From: Geobacter sp. AOG1
GTDB taxonomy: Bacteria > Desulfobacterota > Desulfuromonadia > Geobacterales > Geobacteraceae
Direction of reading: 5' to 3'
DNA: 64,000 bases
NCBI RefSeq assembly: GCF_019972315.1
Contig: NZ_BLIZ01000001.1
Coordinates: 2,827,521-2,891,520 of the forward strand
The notes below the pieces were generated by a model. That model did no database searches. It saw nothing but the letters and a program-made list of their open reading frames with translations, and was not told the DNA's origin. The translations under genes and the position numbers were made by a program. Within the stretch, counting starts at the first letter, position 1. Every line of letters begins with the position of its first letter. Positions 38,759 through 46,321 of this stretch are shown in pieces.

Positions 38759-39442
38759 TTACTCGAGACGCACCCTTCTGACACCGACAACGGCAGCAAG
38801 ATCGTCCACCAGCCTGCAGGCAAGCTCTTGAGTACTGAATTTGACGTAAAATTCATAGGTGGTCTGCTTTTTTTCCACATCCTTCTCCAGATTCACGTTT
38901 ACCACCTGCATCTGGCACGCCGTGATCAATCCCTCGAATATTATCTGCTGCCCCTTCAGGTCACTGCTCCATACCTTGAGCGTCACATAGGTATCACGCT
39001 GCAACCGACTCTCCACCTTTTTCAGGAGAAGAAGGCTCATGAGTGCAATCAGGGTCACCACCGTCGCCATTGCGTACATTCCCACGCCACAGGCAACGCC
39101 AAGGGCAGCCGCCACCCAGAGACAGGCAGCTGTCGTAAGACCACGGATGGAAGCCCTTTCCCTGATGATTGCGCCCGCCCCGAGAAAACCGATCCCCGTC
39201 ACCACCTGCGCTGCAACCCTGCCCGGGTCAACCCCCACCGGTCCCGCGCCGCTCAGGTTTCCATACTGATAATAAAATTGGATTGATGTGAGAACAAAGA
39301 GGCAGGCACCAAGAGAAACAAGCAGGTGGGTACGAAAACCGGCCGGACGACCATGCACCTCCCGCTCCAGACCAATGAGTCCTCCAAACAGGCAGGACAA
39401 TACGAGTCTGAGCAGAAGTTCCAGGCTGAAGTCAAAGTGCAT
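38759..39442 (-). CDS. MgtC/SapB family membrane protein
   Basis: A 227-residue protein with the MgtC signature: GGLIGLEREVHGRPAGFRTH (about residues 20-39) followed by LLVSLGAC, GIGFLGAGAI and GLTTAACLWVAAALG across four to five helices, then a soluble ACT-like C-terminal domain. MgtC proteins affect Mg homeostasis and F-ATPase activity. It follows the MglA-like GTPase after 32 bases and is the last gene of the long leftward run. Confidence 0.92.
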   Translation of the reverse strand: MHFDFSLELLLRLVLSCLFGGLIGLEREVHGRPAGFRTHLLVSLGACLFVLTSIQFYYQYGNLSGAGPVGVDPGRVAAQVVTGIGFLGAGAIIRERASIRGLTTAACLWVAAALGVACGVGMYAMATVVTLIALMSLLLLKKVESRLQRDTYVTLKVWSSDLKGQQIIFEGLITACQMQVVNVNLEKDVEKKQTTYEFYVKFSTQELACRLVDDLAAVVGVRRVRLE

Positions 39443-39474
39443 CGGAGTCCTCCACCATCACCTCGACAGCTTTG

Positions 39475-40341
39475 TCATTCGGCTTCCAGTGAAACAGCCA
39501 GGTTCAGCACCATGCGACGCGTCATATTCCCGCATCGTATGGACAGAGGGACCTGCAGGTGGCCGTCAGCCGTAAGATGCACCCCTTCCAGAATCTCTAC
39601 AGAAGATGCTGCGTTTTCGCTCGGGGTTTCTTCCGACCCGGCTGCACTAGACTCGGCAGCCGGCAACACGACGATCGGCGCAGGAATAGATTGTTCACCC
39701 GCGACCTCTTCAGCCTCGGTGGCCGTACCCTCTACCGCCTCTCCCGCCAGTTCCAAACCACTCTCCCGCAATCGTTTCAAAACCATTTTCACCAGGGTAA
39801 AGAGGCATTCCAGCACCCCTTCTCCCGTACCAGCCGCGGCCTTCATGAAGGCCCCCCCCCCAAGACCGAAGGATTGCTGCATTTCAGCAGTCGAAACGGC
39901 GTCTGCCAGGTCGCTCTTGTTGCACTGTACAATGATGGGCAGCGCATCCGTTGACAAACCATGGCCGCGTAGACACGTCTGCAACCTTTCCAGGCTGGTG
40001 TGGTTTTCCGTCTGACGTGCAGAAGATGCATCGGCAACGAAGACTACCCCGTCAACTCCCTTGAGCACCATCTTCCAGGTGGAGTCCTGGGGGACATCCC
40101 CCTGAACGGTATAAATGTGAAATCTGACCGCGTAGTCGTTCAGCTTCCCCTGCCCCGACGGTAGAAAATCGAAAAAGAGCATCTTGCTTCCCTGCACGTT
40201 CATGCTCTTGAATTGCCCCCGAAAGTCAGGCTTAAGCTTTTTGAATATAAAGTTGAGGTTCGTCGCCTTCCCCGCCTGCGCCGCACCAAAATAGACGATC
40301 TTGGCGTTGATTTCCTTTTTGGCGTGATTAACCAGTGCCAT
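39475..40341 (-). CDS. MglA-like Ras-superfamily GTPase with altered active site
   Basis: A 288-residue relative of MglA, the polarity GTPase of gliding bacteria. Residues 1-200 align along the whole MglA fold: EINAKIVYFG, FFDFLP at 56-61, LKGVDGVVFVAD and NKSD (141-144). Two catalytic positions differ. The P-loop reads GAAQAGKA (19-26), with Ala26 where the Mg-coordinating Ser/Thr should be, and the MglA PGQ motif is QGD (80-82), with Asp82 in place of the catalytic Gln. An extra 85-residue C-terminal region (acidic/Ala-rich, then a beta-like module) is not part of MglA. It lies 12 bases after a helical-repeat gene. It may bind but not hydrolyse GTP; inference. Confidence 0.85.
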   Translation of the reverse strand: MALVNHAKKEINAKIVYFGAAQAGKATNLNFIFKKLKPDFRGQFKSMNVQGSKMLFFDFLPSGQGKLNDYAVRFHIYTVQGDVPQDSTWKMVLKGVDGVVFVADASSARQTENHTSLERLQTCLRGHGLSTDALPIIVQCNKSDLADAVSTAEMQQSFGLGGGAFMKAAAGTGEGVLECLFTLVKMVLKRLRESGLELAGEAVEGTATEAEEVAGEQSIPAPIVVLPAAESSAAGSEETPSENAASSVEILEGVHLTADGHLQVPLSIRCGNMTRRMVLNLAVSLEAE

Positions 40342-40353
40342 GGGCTCTTCCCC

Positions 40354-41262
40354 CTATCTGTGTTTTTGCTTCTGGAGCAGGATGCGACGTGCCTGTGTCG
40401 AGATCACGCTCGAAACGTTCTTGCTCTTGGCAATGGCAGCCACGTCCTTCTCGGTGAGAGTCGAAATGTAGCGAAGGGCATTGGGGAGCGGTGTTTTATT
40501 GTTTGTCGCCAGTGCCTTGCGAATCTGGTAGTTCTTTACCCATTCCCTGTTGGCACAGATGAGGCGCATGATCTCATCATTCTGAACGCCGGTTTTGACA
40601 AGGTTCAAGATCTCCGCCTCGGTTATGCGGGGGTTCTTGATCACCGAACCGCATATCAGCTTGTTCGGTTCCCTGACAAGTATGGAACGCCACTCCTTGT
40701 CTCCGGTCAGGGCCATCTTGATCTTTTCCGAAACACCCATCGATTGTGCCATCTTGTACTTGGATGCATACTCCTCGCTCTCGGGGTCCGTTTCCTCTTC
40801 GGCCTCCTCAGCTTCAGCGTCAAGGTCCTCATCTTCGTACTCGTCCAAAAGAGCTTCTTCTTCAGGCAGCATATTCTGGACAGCCGCCGCTGCACCGGCA
40901 ACACCCTTTTCCGCAAGAAAGACCATGGTCTGCCTATCGATCATGGGATGCTCAACGAGACGTGACGCCAGGTCCGGCTTGCCATAATAAAGCCTCGCCA
41001 GTAGTTCAATCACCTTCGTCGGCGTTTCAGCGGAATCGGCTACCTGCAGGGCGACCGATTCCGGCATCTGCCGCAGACTTTTTATGGCGGCGCTTTTGAC
41101 CTCTTCATCCTGATCGTAACTCAGGAAGAGGAGAAGATTAACAAGATCGCCAGCAGCAAAGGGCACTTCCCAGCGTGCGGCCCGCAACCGGTCCTCTCGG
41201 GGGGTGGCCGCCGCGGCATAGCCTGCAGCGGCCGGGGAGACGTTCAGGACCACTTTGTTCAT
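40354..41262 (-). CDS. helical-repeat (HEAT-like) protein, unknown function
   Basis: A 302-residue soluble protein I cannot assign. Residues about 35-130 contain paired helices (DEEVKSAAIKSLRQMP, TPTKVIELLARLYYG) reminiscent of HEAT-type scaffolds. A very acidic linker (EEEALLDEYEDEDLDAEAEE) occupies about 135-165. The C-terminal half is helical with EWRSILVREPNKLI and REWVKNYQIRKALATN, which look like further repeats. AGGAGG is 11 bases before ATG 41262 and 8 before an in-frame TTG at 41265. It is tightly spaced (12 bases each side) between the SPOR gene and the MglA-like GTPase, suggesting a complex. Confidence 0.8.
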   Translation of the reverse strand: MNKVVLNVSPAAAGYAAAATPREDRLRAARWEVPFAAGDLVNLLLFLSYDQDEEVKSAAIKSLRQMPESVALQVADSAETPTKVIELLARLYYGKPDLASRLVEHPMIDRQTMVFLAEKGVAGAAAAVQNMLPEEEALLDEYEDEDLDAEAEEAEEETDPESEEYASKYKMAQSMGVSEKIKMALTGDKEWRSILVREPNKLICGSVIKNPRITEAEILNLVKTGVQNDEIMRLICANREWVKNYQIRKALATNNKTPLPNALRYISTLTEKDVAAIAKSKNVSSVISTQARRILLQKQKHR

Positions 41263-41277
41263 CAAGGATACTTCCTC

Positions 41278-42330
41278 CTACTTCCCCGCCTTTACGACGT
41301 GAACCTTGATACCATGCTTCTTCAGACTCGCAATATCCTTGACAGCCTCATCCTTGCTAGCATACCTGCCCGCGGTGAGGCGCACGACCGGCACGGGTGC
41401 CATAGTCTTCTTCATCACCAGCTTGTACCCTTTTTCATAGAGACGGTCCTGCTCAACGGCAGCCTTCCCCTCGTTGAAGTAGGAACCGGCATAGACCACA
41501 TATTTGCCATTCTCAGGGAGAATGAAACCGTCGGATGTTGCTTTCTTCAGATTCCCCAATGCCGCATCAGCCGCCTGATGGCTATCGAACGACGCAAGAT
41601 ACAGGCGATTCATCGGCTCGGACCGCTTCGTTTTCGTCTTGACAACCGGCCCGATGCCGAGCTTTTTCAGCTTTGCCTGTACCGATGCAGCCGACTTCTC
41701 CACGACATACTCACCGACCATCAGGGTGTAGGCACCGGAAGCAGATTTACTCCCCACTTTGGATGCCTTCGCGGCGGGTTTAGCCGCCGCAACTTTTTGA
41801 GGGCTAGCAGCAGGCGCAGGAGCAGGTTTCCCCGTCACAGCCGGTTGAACCTTTGCCGTCTTGGCTGGAGGTACGGGCTGTTTTACTGCCGGGGCAACAG
41901 CCGGGGCCGGTGGTTTAGCAGCAGCAACTGGCGCCGGCTTAGCGGACGGAGCAGCTACCGGTGCTGGAGGCGCAGCAACAGGCTTCGTTGCAGGAGCTGC
42001 TGTTGCGGGAGCCGCAGGGGCCGTTGTCGGCGCGCCGGCAGGCTTTGCTGCCGGGACATCTTTGGCGGCGGTGCTTGCGGGTGCTACCGCATTACCAGTA
42101 ACCGGGGCTGCTCCGCCGGCCGCCGGCCTTGCCGGAATCGGCTGTTTTACCTGAGCTGGCGGCGGCGGAACTGGCGTTTCCTCCCGTGGCTTGATGATGC
42201 CGGTAAAGAAATAGAGATAACCGAATACCGCCAGCAGCAGAACCAGTACCAACAGCAGTATCTGCTGGGAACTACCCTTCTCGCCGTCGGCAGTACTCGC
42301 GTCCGTCGATGTCTTCCTGAAACCGAACAT
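41278..42330 (-). CDS. membrane-anchored SPOR-domain-like protein
   Basis: A 350-residue bitopic protein. A membrane helix (about residues 23-42, LLLVLVLLLAVFGYLYFF) is followed by about 150 residues of Ala/Pro/Lys repeats, a periplasm-spanning linker. The C-terminal 150 residues contain SPOR-like repeats (YTLMVGEYVVEKSA, KKLGIGPVVK, YVVYAGSYFNEGKA, VVRLTAGRYASKDEA). SPOR domains bind denuded septal peptidoglycan, so a cell-division or pole location is plausible. It follows the EF-G-like gene after 26 bases and precedes the helical-repeat protein. Confidence 0.85.
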   Translation of the reverse strand: MFGFRKTSTDASTADGEKGSSQQILLLVLVLLLAVFGYLYFFTGIIKPREETPVPPPPAQVKQPIPARPAAGGAAPVTGNAVAPASTAAKDVPAAKPAGAPTTAPAAPATAAPATKPVAAPPAPVAAPSAKPAPVAAAKPPAPAVAPAVKQPVPPAKTAKVQPAVTGKPAPAPAASPQKVAAAKPAAKASKVGSKSASGAYTLMVGEYVVEKSAASVQAKLKKLGIGPVVKTKTKRSEPMNRLYLASFDSHQAADAALGNLKKATSDGFILPENGKYVVYAGSYFNEGKAAVEQDRLYEKGYKLVMKKTMAPVPVVRLTAGRYASKDEAVKDIASLKKHGIKVHVVKAGK

Positions 42331-42356
42331 GTATCCATCCTCCTGGTAAAGATAAT

Positions 42357-44450
42357 TTATTGATGATTGTTTTTCGTGGTAGCCGCTGCTTCCGTAATGA
42401 CCTTCTGGGACAGATGACTCGGCACCTCTTCGTAGTGGGAATACTCCATGGTGAAGAGGCCACGGTCACTCGTCATGGACTTGAGATCATTGGAATAGGC
42501 AAGCACTTCCGACATGGGCACGACCGCCCTGATGATCTGGGAATTCGCCTTCGGCTCGACGCCAACTACCTTGCCGCGCCGCGAGTTGAGATCGCCGATG
42601 ACATCACCCATGTTCTCATCTGGAACCGTGATTTTCATGGTTACGATAGGTTCGAGAAGCACTGGTTTGCAGAGTTCCATCGCCTTTTTGAATGCCATGG
42701 ACCCGGCAACCTTGAACGCCATCTCCGAAGAGTCCACGGTATGGAACGAGCCGTCATAGAGGGCGACCTTGAAGTCGACTACCGGATAACCGGCAAGGAA
42801 TCCTTCCTGCGACGCCTCCTGAATTCCCTTATCCACCGCCGGAATGTACTGGCGGGGGATGACGCCACCGACGATCTTGTCATCGAAAAGGTACCCCTCG
42901 CCACGCGGCTGAGGGGACATCTCGATCCAGCAGTCGCCGTACTGACCGCGGCCACCCGACTGTTTCTTGTATTTTCCCTGCACCTTCGCCGTGCCGCGGA
43001 TGGTCTCGAGATAGGGCACTTTCGGGGTCTTGAGGAGAACCTCCACGCCGAACTTTCGTTTCATCTTTTCCACGATGACTTCAAGATGTACCTGCCCCAT
43101 GCCGGATATGATTAGTTCCTTGGTCTGGGTGTCGCGGTGGGATTCCAGGGTCGGTTCTTCTTCGATCATCTTGTGGAGGGCCGAATGGATCTTGTCTTCA
43201 TCGTTCTTGGTCTTTGGTTCGATGGCGTAGGAGATAACCGGTTGCAGAAGCTTGGCAGGTTCGTAGACGATGGGCTTCACCTCGTCGCACAGGGTGTCGC
43301 CGGTCACGGTCTCCTTGAGCTTGGCCACTGCCACGATATCGCCTGCCACTGCCTGCTTGATCGGTTTCTGCTTCTTCCCTTCCAGTTCATAGATCTGGCC
43401 GATCCTTTCCTGTACGTCCTTTGTCGAATTATAGACGGTGGAATCTGAGTTGAGCACACCTGAGTAGACCCGAAAGATGGTAATTTTACCCGTATAGGGG
43501 TCGGAGGTGGTCTTGAACACCAGCGCGGAAAACGGCTCCGACTCGGCCGGCGCACGTTCGATGATGTCCCCGCTCTTGGGATGGGTGCCTACCGCCTTGG
43601 TACGATCAATGGGTGACGGGAGGAAAGCCCCGATGGCATCCAGCAGATGGGGAACACCGATATTCATGGCAGCCGAACCGCACAACACGGCCGTAAACGT
43701 ATTACGCATGGTTCCGACCCGCAGGCCGTCAAGTATTTCCTCATCGGTCAGTTCACCGGTTTCCAGAAATTTTTCGGTCAGGGCGTCGTATGCTTCGGCA
43801 ACCGTCTCCACCATCTGCTCGCGCAGCCGCTGTGCATCGGCCTGATACTCGGCGGGTATCGCCTCTTCGGTGTATTTCCCCGACTGGTCCTTTGCATAGC
43901 GATAGGCCTTCATCTTCACCAGGTCGATGACCCCTTCGAAATTCTCTTCGGCTCCGAGGGGTATCTGTATCGCCACACCCCGCGCGCCGAGGGCCTTTTC
44001 CATGTCGTCTATGGCGCGCAGGAAGCTGGCCCGTTCCCGGTCCATTTTGTTGACAAAGGCGATGCGGGGAATTTCGAACTCGTTTGCCCACTGCCAGATC
44101 TCTTCGGTCTGGGCCTTGACCCCGGAGATGGCCGAGAGGATGACGACCGCACAGTCGAGGGCGCGCATGCAGGCCCGGGTGTCGGCAATGAAATTGCCGT
44201 AACCGGGGGTGTCCACCAGGTGGATGGAATGACCGTTCCATTCGCAATGGTCGAGGGAGGAGGTAATGGAAATCTTCCGCTTGATTTCTTCCGGCTCGAA
44301 ATCCATGGTAGAAGTGCCGTCATCGACCCTTCCGAGCCGATCGATCATCCCCGTATCAAACAGGATGGCCTCGGCCAATGAGGTCTTTCCAGCTCCGCCG
44401 TGGGCAATAATACCAAGATTTCTCAGCTTAGACGTATCATACTTTCCCAT
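42357..44450 (-). CDS. elongation factor G-like protein (FusA2-type)
   Basis: A 697-residue translational GTPase. P-loop AHGGAGKT (residues 16-23) replaces the AHIDAGKT of canonical EF-G and marks the EF-G-like paralogue group. G3 DTPGYGNF, G4 NKMD and the EF-G domains II-V (GRGQYGDCWIEM; NMGDVIGDLNSRRG) are present. Lacking str-operon neighbours, it is unlikely to be the housekeeping EF-G. It follows coaX after 44 bases. Its role (translocation or recycling variant) is unknown. Confidence 0.92.
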   Translation of the reverse strand: MGKYDTSKLRNLGIIAHGGAGKTSLAEAILFDTGMIDRLGRVDDGTSTMDFEPEEIKRKISITSSLDHCEWNGHSIHLVDTPGYGNFIADTRACMRALDCAVVILSAISGVKAQTEEIWQWANEFEIPRIAFVNKMDRERASFLRAIDDMEKALGARGVAIQIPLGAEENFEGVIDLVKMKAYRYAKDQSGKYTEEAIPAEYQADAQRLREQMVETVAEAYDALTEKFLETGELTDEEILDGLRVGTMRNTFTAVLCGSAAMNIGVPHLLDAIGAFLPSPIDRTKAVGTHPKSGDIIERAPAESEPFSALVFKTTSDPYTGKITIFRVYSGVLNSDSTVYNSTKDVQERIGQIYELEGKKQKPIKQAVAGDIVAVAKLKETVTGDTLCDEVKPIVYEPAKLLQPVISYAIEPKTKNDEDKIHSALHKMIEEEPTLESHRDTQTKELIISGMGQVHLEVIVEKMKRKFGVEVLLKTPKVPYLETIRGTAKVQGKYKKQSGGRGQYGDCWIEMSPQPRGEGYLFDDKIVGGVIPRQYIPAVDKGIQEASQEGFLAGYPVVDFKVALYDGSFHTVDSSEMAFKVAGSMAFKKAMELCKPVLLEPIVTMKITVPDENMGDVIGDLNSRRGKVVGVEPKANSQIIRAVVPMSEVLAYSNDLKSMTSDRGLFTMEYSHYEEVPSHLSQKVITEAAATTKNNHQ

Positions 44451-44494: not shown

Positions 44495-45265
44495 TTAATT
44501 TTCATGGTTACGCTGATACAGGATACGCAGGCCTTCAAGAGTCAGATATTCGTCTACCTCGTCAATTGTTTTGGATTCGGGGGCAATAAGGCGAGCAAGA
44601 CCACCAGTAGCGAGAATCCGCGGATTATCACGGCTCTCAGTCTTGATCCTTCCGACGATTTCGTCGACGAGTCCGACATAACCGTAAAAAATGCCTGCCT
44701 GCATGGAATTGACCGTGTTCTTGGCGATGATGGAAGGTGGTTTGAGTATTTCTACCCGCGGCAGCTTGCTCGCCTTCTGGAACAATGCCTCCATGGAAAT
44801 CACGAGACCGGGGGCAATGGCACCTCCACAGTATTCACCTTTCCTGTTCACGTAATCGAATGTGGTCGCCGTACCGAAATCGACGATGATCAGGGCGGTC
44901 TTGTGCTTCTCGAAACCTGCCACCGCGTTGACGATGCGGTCGGCGCCCACCTCTTTTGGATTGTCGTAATGAATCGGCATCCCCGTCTTGATACCGGGGC
45001 CGACGACGTACGGGCGAAAACCGAAATATTCGACGGCCAGTCGTTCCAGCACACCGGTAAGGGTCGGCACCACCGACGATATGATGATATCCCGGATATC
45101 GCCGAAGGAAATGCCGGCCAGCCGGAACAGGTCGTGGACGAGGATGCCGTATTCATCGGCGGTTTTCGATTTTTCAGTGGAAACGCGCCAGTCTTTGAGA
45201 AGCCGTTCTCCATCGTAGATACCGAGTACGATGTTGCTGTTGCCGACGTCGATTACTAGAAGCAC
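44495..45265 (-). CDS. coaX: type III pantothenate kinase
   Basis: A 256-residue ASKHA-fold kinase for the first step of coenzyme A synthesis, K+-dependent and not feedback-inhibited. Motifs [14 protein letters not shown] (phosphate 1), [23 protein letters not shown] and ATGGLA are intact. The start is GTG 45265 with GAGGAG six bases upstream. The pairing birA-coaX on one transcript is common in bacteria. Confidence 0.96.
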
Positions 45266-45307
45266 CTAACTCTCCTCACTCTTCTTATCAAACACGCTCA
45301 GCGAAGC

Positions 45308-46321
45308 TCAGACGAGCGATACATCACCGGCCAGTACCCGCTCCACGCGACCGTCGTCCAGGTTGAGGAGAAGTGCTCCATAGTCGTCGATGCCGGTTGC
45401 CACACCGGCGACAACGCTGTCACGATAGGATACGTGCACCCGCTGGCCGATCATAGAGCAACGGGCCAGCCATTCGTCTCGTATGACCCCATAGTCGCCA
45501 GCCATGAAGGCAGAATACAGATTGTCTACTGCGCGAATAAAGGCGCGAGTGAATTCCATGCGGTTGACGGCCCCCCCGGTTTCCATGCGGAGAGACGTTG
45601 CAGGGTAACGCAGGTCGGCGGGAAACTGTCCCTCTTCCATGTTGATGTTAACACCGATACCGAGAATGATGAAATTGACCTTCTCTGTTTCGGCCCCCAT
45701 CTCATTGAGCAGTCCCGCCACCTTGCGTCCCGACAACAACACATCGTTGGGCCATTTGATGGTGGGCACGAGTGGGGTGGTTTCCTCGACAGCCCTGGCC
45801 ACGGCAACAGCAGAGAGAAACGTCAACTGGACAGCCTGCAATGGCAGGATGGGAGGACGAAGGATGATGGAGCAGTAGAGGTTTACCCCTGGCGGTGATT
45901 CCCACTGCCGTCCCATCCGCCCCTTCCCCCGGCGCTGGGACTCGGCAATGATAACCGTCCCTTCCGGTGCTCCCTCTTCAGCCAGTTTGAAAGCGGTTTC
46001 GTTGGTGGAATCGGTCTCACGAAACGAAATGATCTGCCGACCGATCCGCTTCGTCATGAGACCGACCGCGATCTCCGCCGGCAGAAGGAGATCAGGAACG
46101 GCAACGAGCCGGTATCCGACGGATGGCACCGCCTCTATGCGGTAACCCAGGTCCTTCAGACTCTTGATATGCTTCCATACCGCTGTGCGGGAGACCTTGA
46201 GCCTACTGCTCAACTCTTCCCCCGACACGATACCACCGGGGGTTGCCCGAAATATCTCCAGAATGCGCTGGTCTATTGTTTTGTCGTCCATGGCGGCATG
46301 CCGGAGAAAATCTTCTTTCAC
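45308..46321 (-). CDS. birA: bifunctional biotin-protein ligase/biotin repressor
   Basis: A 337-residue class II BirA. A winged helix is at about residues 15-75 (GGIVSGEELSSRLKVSRTAV, then WKHIKSL). The ligase domain follows, with SQRRGKGRMGRQW as the biotinyl-AMP loop and KWPNDVLL with the catalytic Lys. It attaches biotin to carboxylases and, as holo-repressor, should bind the dyad before bioB in this window. GTG 46321 overlaps the nadC stop by GTGA and has GGAGG four bases before; ATG 46291 is the alternative without a site. Confidence 0.95.
   Translation of the reverse strand: MKEDFLRHAAMDDKTIDQRILEIFRATPGGIVSGEELSSRLKVSRTAVWKHIKSLKDLGYRIEAVPSVGYRLVAVPDLLLPAEIAVGLMTKRIGRQIISFRETDSTNETAFKLAEEGAPEGTVIIAESQRRGKGRMGRQWESPPGVNLYCSIILRPPILPLQAVQLTFLSAVAVARAVEETTPLVPTIKWPNDVLLSGRKVAGLLNEMGAETEKVNFIILGIGVNINMEEGQFPADLRYPATSLRMETGGAVNRMEFTRAFIRAVDNLYSAFMAGDYGVIRDEWLARCSMIGQRVHVSYRDSVVAGVATGIDDYGALLLNLDDGRVERVLAGDVSLV

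Follow-up and report, generated by a model that had tools for sequence, protein, structure and literature searches.

What becomes of a Ras-like switch protein when the residues with which it would cut GTP are gone? The question is raised by three genes of Geobacter sp. AOG1, in a stretch of 64,000 nucleotides from contig NZ_BLIZ01000001.1 that was analysed whole and is referred to here as the window; all coordinates are window coordinates unless a relative's locus is named. The three genes lie on the minus strand and are transcribed in the order SPOR-domain gene (41278-42330), gene for a soluble helical-repeat protein that we call HEL (40354-41265) and gene for an MglA-type G domain (39475-40341). 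The two intergenic gaps are 12 bases each if HEL starts at its TTG codon; an ATG is the codon directly after it, and the SPOR/HEL gap may therefore be 15 bases. Apart from this possibility, coordinates, strand, order and spacing are as an earlier note on this DNA had described them, as are the G-domain motifs GAAQAGKA (with Ala26) and QGD (with Asp82). The product of the third gene is probably, on the evidence of its sequence, a Ras relative that lost its GTP-cutting machinery long ago. Sequence comparison indicates that one ancient change converted an MglA-type GTPase to a pseudo-GTPase, whose nucleotide pocket then eroded lineage by lineage. The locus is a natural experiment on the role left to a signalling switch that can no longer switch.

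The active site of the G domain

The pseudo-GTPase gene encodes 288 amino acids, comprising a G domain, a disordered linker and a C-terminal beta segment. A phmmer alignment to MglA (E 4.2e-44) spans residues 1-195, in agreement with the whole-length match claimed for it earlier, and structural alignments place the G domain at 37-40% identity to MglA of Myxococcus xanthus. Among the differences from MglA, Thr26 is replaced by Ala, Arg53 by Lys, Thr54 by Met, Pro80 by Gln, Gln82 by Asp and Arg89 by Trp. Gly19, Lys25, Asp58 and Thr78 are kept. The P-loop (residues 19-26, 40264-40287) carries Ala26 in place of the Mg-binding threonine. Switch I (residues 45-58, 40168-40209) is rebuilt, with Lys45, Lys53 and Met54 and with Asp58 retained. 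In MglA, Arg53 is the arginine finger and Thr54 the Mg2+-binding threonine, and both are moved into the nucleotide site by MglB for catalysis (PMC6876712); an MglA T54A variant is produced, but is diffuse and poorly functional (PMC3000849). The G3 motif, PGQ in active MglA, reads QGD (residues 80-82, 40096-40104), and Trp89 (40075-40077) stands where active forms have Arg. The guanine motif G4 is retained as NKSD (residues 141-144, 39910-39921).

The motifs G1 to G5 of MglA Group 1 have been defined (PMC4316618). Set against them, the window protein has Lys53-Met54 where Group 1 has an arginine finger next to the G2 threonine, and TVQGD where Group 1 has TVPGQ with the catalytic Gln; the NKxD guanine motif is present. 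The protein thus differs from the Group 1 members of M. xanthus and T. thermophilus, for which MglB is the GTPase-activating protein, in lacking Arg53, Thr54, Gln82 and PGQ, and in possessing Trp89, the linker and the beta segment. Nor is an MglB, whose gene is typically though not always coupled to that of a Group 1 member, seen beside it: Pfam found no roadblock domain in the two immediate neighbours of the gene. The linker spans approximately residues 198-245 (39607-39750), has a predicted local distance difference test score (pLDDT) below 50 at residues 201-219 and 225-240, and varies widely in length in the alignment. The beta segment that follows (approximately residues 246-284, 39490-39606) is conserved and modelled with strands at 247-250, 261-270 and 273-282, with ten-residue pLDDT means of 78-94.

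The window genome carries a separate, intact canonical mglA at another locus, with an MglB-like open reading frame (ORF), identified by inspection, upstream of it. A third, intact MglA-like paralogue is found in a number of genomes of the family (Geobacteraceae). In L107-L114 (L-numbers label loci read from the genomes of relatives) this paralogue has intact motifs, a switch I reading DRTIYFD or DRTIFFD, and forms a clade of its own.

Residue states and descent across the order

Of the 141 genomes of the order (Geobacterales), 133 have the pseudo-GTPase gene. The key positions can be read in 130 sequences: that of the window, 42 others from its family and 87 from the rest of the order. Position 54 is Leu in 74, Met in 54, Ile in one and Ser in one; it is never Thr, and is hydrophobic in all but the sequence with Ser. 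Position 89 is Trp in 130/130. These are the universal features. Ala26 and Asp82, the substitutions singled out by the earlier note, are not conserved as such (18/130 and 14/130) and are ruled out as the signature of the group. What does hold is the broader claim that a broken MglA-type active site is conserved together with its neighbourhood; it does so throughout the order, and the damage is worse than noted, extending to Met54, Lys53 and Trp89. Gly19 and Lys25 are kept in 130/130 and Asp58 in 127/130. NKxD is intact in 64/130 (40/43 in the family and 24/87 elsewhere), the alignment around G4 being uncertain where that region is very eroded. In one order family (L171, L177, L182, L286-L296, L303-L327) NKxD is gone or unrecognisable in many members and the P-loop Gly19 and Lys25 persist, a pattern that suggests loss of nucleotide specificity or of nucleotide binding.

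Outside the order, 26 GTPase genes directly behind HEL were read (L190, L192, L205, L206, L210, L222 and L243-L262), three of which (L190, L192, L262) belong to a single family within the class and 23 to other classes. All 26 are intact. Two further loci, L301 and L302, have an intact long MglA-type GTPase right behind the gene for elongation factor G (EF-G), with no HEL between. All 28 carry GKTTN, Arg53-Thr54, PGQ and NKRD, and Thr54 and Arg89 are each present in 28/28, whereas order members have neither. Orthologues with normal motifs at the same operon position, which the earlier note had named as a result that would refute its reading, do therefore exist, but only outside the order. Since intact orthologues are found only outside it, an ancient conversion is indicated; local drift is ruled out, the loss spanning the order and having one origin on the trees. 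Fourteen residues are kept at 95% or more in pseudo (99 sequences), intact and canonical sets alike: M1, E10, K14, G19, G24, K25, F56, F57, D58, Y77, L93, D97, G98 and P135. The pseudo set adds two residues of its own, Lys45 (91%) and Trp89 (100%). One intact orthologue, in L205 (4152-6995 of that locus), reaches 947 residues, its G domain being joined to the C-terminal segment by a very long acidic linker.

In a tree with the five catalytic columns masked, 63 pseudo-GTPases form one clade (support 100/99), the intact pair L190/L192 is its sister (96/84), and canonical MglA forms a clade apart (100/100). Of six intact orthologues included, five group with the pseudo-GTPases (82/93). For this tree the duplicate rows L238 and L242 were removed, and L241, a long copy that does not stand next to HEL, received a label of its own. 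In shorter searches, for which ten columns were masked, a branch again separated the pseudo-GTPases from the other sequences, whether 99 of them (Shimodaira-Hasegawa approximate likelihood ratio test, SH-aLRT, 99) or 130 (SH-aLRT 94) were included. Several rows have long branches. Parsimony on the tree of 130 requires a single change each for Thr54 and Trp89, two for Asp58, six for Gln82, nine for NKxD, ten for Arg53 and 22 for the P-loop Ser/Thr. The C-terminal segment connects the two sets: a hidden Markov model of the C-terminal segment built from family tails matched 19 of 20 order tails at E 0.0091 or better, and five of six intact orthologues at E 0.0033 or better in a small database, the sixth (L222) scoring 0.82. 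We note that L340 (1051-1653 of that locus), from a small order genome that is 81% complete, encodes an MglA of canonical length with Lys53, Met54 and His89 and with intact P-loop and PGQ; this is perhaps a second, independent loss, one that struck the canonical copy.

Could the gene simply be functionless and on its way out? Several motifs have eroded independently and some members have long branches, as such decay would predict. The idea is already contradicted by the remaining data, and we regard it as barely credible. Within the family, 14 species pairs were compared by the ratio of nonsynonymous to synonymous substitution rates (omega, NG86). For the G domain it is 0.036-0.142 in 12 of them, some with synonymous divergence (dS) above 1; the other two, L074/L082 and L082/L084 (0.699 and 0.000), were discarded, a start codon placed too far upstream having shifted their numbering. 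In the same 12 pairs omega is 0.024-0.048 for EF-G, except for one value of 0.285, and 0.13-0.67 for the GTPase tail. The G domain is therefore under purifying selection in the family despite lacking its catalytic residues. Its presence in 133/141 order genomes, the invariant Trp89 and the conserved C-terminal segment likewise speak against decay.

A slow but real GTPase, serving as a spatial switch by an unusual hydrolysis route or with residues supplied by a partner, appears very improbable. In its favour, position 53 is Arg or Lys in 43/43 family sequences (Arg53 is retained in 41/130 across the order), the P-loop has Ser/Thr in 45/130 and Gln82 survives in 5/130. Set against this, Thr54 is replaced in 130/130 and the catalytic Gln is lost in 125/130, and no member combines P-loop Thr, Thr54 and Gln82. 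The nearest, L174, retains the P-loop Thr and Gln82 but is without Thr54, Arg53 and Pro80. The earlier note had proposed a slow or non-hydrolysing GTPase acting as a spatial switch; its first half is reasonable, and the second is unsupported, because the parts that make MglA a switch are gone.

A different possibility is a locked form, which would hold guanine nucleotide tightly without Mg2+ or hydrolysis and behave as an MglA permanently on or off, its mere presence carrying the signal (compare Rnd). The conserved P-loop Gly and Lys together with NKSD do argue for a nucleotide held by the window protein. Position 26 is, however, not Ser/Thr in 85/130, and NKxD is lost in 63 of the 87 sequences from other families of the order, which keep the gene all the same. 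The nucleotide thus looks dispensable at least in those families, which argues that it is not what is selected. We consider the locked form possible but doubtful.

Partner genes and their neighbourhood

A protein search of 48 genomes of the family gave MglA-type matches in all 48, and 45 have the long degenerate copy, the three without it being 69-85% complete. Of the 44 family loci read, all have HEL, 43 have SPOR, 36 have an MgtC-like gene and 42 have the GTPase as a complete ORF; one of the remaining two is truncated at the end of its contig and the other contains a run of N. What looked like a HEL-GTPase fusion in one family locus was rejected as an artefact of such a run of N, translated as X. 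Elsewhere in the order the GTPase stands behind HEL in all 56 HEL loci examined (20 + 36), and among the 40 remaining order genomes it does so in all 28 that have HEL (27 complete ORFs, one cut). The other 12 lack HEL: in four (92, 98, 99 and 100% complete) the SPOR gene is followed immediately by that of the pseudo-GTPase, and eight (53-88% complete) have canonical or other MglA copies only, or none. With MglA-type matches in 48/48 family genomes and the same gene arrangement met again throughout the order, chance can be dismissed, and conservation of the neighbourhood reaches past close strains.

HEL itself is more widespread: 257 of the 277 class genomes (Desulfuromonadia) have it, as do 101 of 297 sampled across the phylum (Desulfobacterota), where many matches cover the C-terminal half only. 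In the rest of the class 21 loci were read; the GTPase is missing from 19 of them, and 18 of those 19 have SPOR. By eye, MOSC- or MogA-like genes come next after HEL in seven of nine class loci inspected. When 21 class genomes were queried with an intact long GTPase, the 19 without a copy at the locus returned canonical-like matches with frames of 165-286 residues, except for one of them (84% complete), which returned none; relocation of the long copy elsewhere in those 19 is not obvious, though it may have occurred. Outside the class, the HEL-GTPase pair occurs in at least 23 of 90 HEL-bearing genomes of the phylum sample; 19 of the loci read (L243-L261) had been selected for having HEL and an MglA-type gene adjacent in the match listings.

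The SPOR protein (350 residues) is a bitopic inner-membrane protein. Its 23 N-terminal residues are followed by a predicted transmembrane segment at residues 24-42 (42205-42261; maximum Kyte-Doolittle 2.88), the sole such hydrophobic stretch, and then by an Ala/Pro linker (residues 47-195, 33% A and 25% P). The Pfam SPOR family (PF05036) matches two stretches with E 7.7e-20 and 71.5 bits, the cut-off being 21; the best lies at residues 197-271 (41518-41742), and the second is given without coordinates. HEL (303 residues from TTG) is modelled as 20 helices in two halves (mean pLDDT 90.6, predicted template modelling score 0.51), separated by an acidic linker at residues 136-168 (40762-40860) that is 58% D/E and falls below pLDDT 50 at 138-161. 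These descriptions bear out those made of the two proteins from the letters alone. The window HEL stays below the Pfam cut-offs for LRV_2 (15.4 bits against 27), HEAT_2 (14.5 against 27.7) and HEAT (13.7 against 23.5), and at E up to 0.1 HEAT_2 is matched by 16 and LRV_2 by 13 of 57 HEL relatives; HEAT and LRV repeats are weakly indicated as its closest described relatives. Foldseek returned no match for HEL at E 0.001 or better, and VIA scores are within the range that the tool calls common.

Each pair of the three genes occurs without the third, and the trio is therefore not a fixed unit. SPOR-HEL without GTPase is seen in the 18 class loci above, and HEL-GTPase without SPOR, with no room between EF-G and HEL, in L222, L246-L248, L251, L253 and L256. 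SPOR-GTPase without HEL occurs in L331, L332, L333 and L339, where we also observe that Asp58 has become Asn in two and Gly in one. HEL follows EF-G directly in lineages without SPOR there, often without the GTPase too (L207, L211, L215, L219, L221, L246, L251). Because many SPOR-less lineages have this arrangement, no other part of the neighbourhood is as widespread as the adjacency of EF-G and HEL.

Upstream of the trio on the same strand lie the genes for EF-G (42357-44450; NCBIfam elongation factor G, 1001 bits; in the same place in most loci compared) and, at 44495-46321, a coaX-like gene (44495-45265) and a birA-like gene (45308-46321), both named from ORF inspection and found to recur by phmmer. 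The SPOR gene begins 26 bases past the EF-G stop, and an MgtC-family membrane protein gene (38759-39442, also minus strand, Pfam MgtC E 1.5e-42) comes after the GTPase gene. The pseudo-GTPase might accordingly act elsewhere, sharing with HEL and SPOR just a position in an old birA/coaX/EF-G operon. The conserved run birA-coaX-EFG-SPOR-HEL-GTPase does include genes without obvious link to the module, HEL survives without the GTPase in most class loci, and the GTPase survives without HEL in four order genomes. On the other side, the HEL-GTPase pair recurs outside the class, in some cases (L243-L245, L255, L257-L259) with no EF-G called in the stretch read, and the SPOR-GTPase pair stays together after HEL has been lost. 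HEL and MglA-type genes also co-occur in the phylum sample: matches at E up to 1e-30 are found in 83/101 genomes with HEL against 84/196 without, and a close match to canonical MglA (at least 319 bits) is found in 45 genomes, 42 of them with HEL, although both sets of counts ignore kinship. A merely inherited neighbourhood seems unlikely to us.

A possible adaptor on a wall-anchored scaffold

The explanation we favour, to which we give an even chance, is that the pseudo-GTPase is kept as a non-switching adaptor on a wall-anchored scaffold with the SPOR protein. The MglA-family G domain would no longer run the cycle of Mg2+ binding and GTP hydrolysis and would be retained for its protein-binding surfaces. 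As we infer the complex, its location and its nucleotide state, the G domain would be frozen in one conformation, perhaps still around guanine nucleotide in the window lineage and without it in the most eroded lineages. It would bind the SPOR protein through the latter's short cytoplasmic N-terminus, and HEL where HEL is present. The periplasmic SPOR domains would tether the complex where amidases have processed the peptidoglycan, namely the septum and the new pole to which it gives rise. Lineages with intact GTPases would have a real switch on this scaffold. In Geobacterales its place would be taken by a constitutive adaptor, which perhaps serves envelope machinery, or the separate MglA/MglB pair of canonical type, as a fixed landmark. 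More tentatively, and with somewhat less than even confidence, we suggest that in nearly the whole order a Ras-like polarity GTPase linked to the envelope became, without leaving its operon, a scaffold that needs no nucleotide, and that neighbouring lineages have kept the working switch next to the HEL gene. The lock formed by Trp89 and Met/Leu54 would have been fixed first, with the pocket decaying lineage by lineage while the partner surface and the tie to SPOR were kept.

Several observations weigh against the adaptor. Gly19 and Lys25 are kept in every order sequence, and nucleotide binding may thus survive. HEL was not found (E 1e-5) in the four order genomes, 92-100% complete, that have SPOR and pseudo-GTPase adjacent, which rules it out as an obligatory partner; it has no neighbouring GTPase in 19 of the 21 loci from the rest of the class, and it often stands directly after EF-G without SPOR. 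The adjacency could be inherited synteny in a run of housekeeping genes. The intact orthologues do not form one clade, L222 falling outside, and their deeper placing is unsettled. The AlphaFold2 model of the GTPase, built without nucleotide or partner, resembles the GDP form, a likeness that has no control in an intact orthologue and is given little weight.

Pieces of the proposed arrangement have precedents. SPOR domains recognise peptidoglycan stripped of stems, which is enriched at the septum (PMC6895207). The FtsN-like SPOR protein RgsS of Sinorhizobium links processed peptidoglycan, as a polarity landmark, to pole identity (PMC7822825); the likeness is a SPOR protein tied to the identity of the new pole, but the organism is another one and the accessible part of that account mentions no GTPase partner. 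SgmX, a helical-repeat effector of the tetratricopeptide (TPR) type, is bound by MglA-GTP (PMC7519303). HEL resembles it as a helical-repeat protein that would work with an MglA GTPase and differs in being HEAT/LRV-like rather than TPR; its binding to the GTPase is our proposal. Pseudo-enzymes are known among eukaryotic kinases and Ras-like proteins, and classes of pseudo-GTPases have been defined (PMC5593906). The eukaryotic examples, namely Rnd and p190RhoGAP pG1/pG2 (PMC5593906) and the septin pseudo-GTPases (PMC10731463), differ from this bacterial MglA-family module, which unlike them has its neighbour genes in one conserved run and one origin over nearly a whole order. Long MglA-like proteins were termed 'MglA2' by Fremgen et al. 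2010 (PMC3000849), and a 291-residue Geobacter sulfurreducens entry there (39% to MglA) may be an orthologue of the module GTPase; the accessible portion of that paper mentions neither the loss of the active site, nor the HEL/SPOR neighbourhood, nor intact orthologues. Among the matches listed in a search of mostly open-access literature there was no account of an MglA-type pseudo-GTPase or of the SPOR/HEL/GTPase trio, which is weak evidence of absence.

The closest counterparts remain the intact long GTPases behind HEL elsewhere. They share the position, a G domain with a long tail and, in five of six compared, a related C-terminal segment, and they differ in having all G motifs intact. Active and inactive forms therefore occupy the same operon position in related bacteria, and the contribution of GTP cycling to a polarity scaffold can be asked directly. 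For Geobacter-type bacteria, the module supplies a concrete candidate for a landmark complex.

A scan of the operon ends for promoters and terminators was uninformative: no promoter-like site was found, and the nine terminators were no clear excess over a shuffle mean of 7.7. Long open frames of up to 354 codons run antisense to all three genes (39326-42363, plus strand), and are probably a by-product of codon usage.

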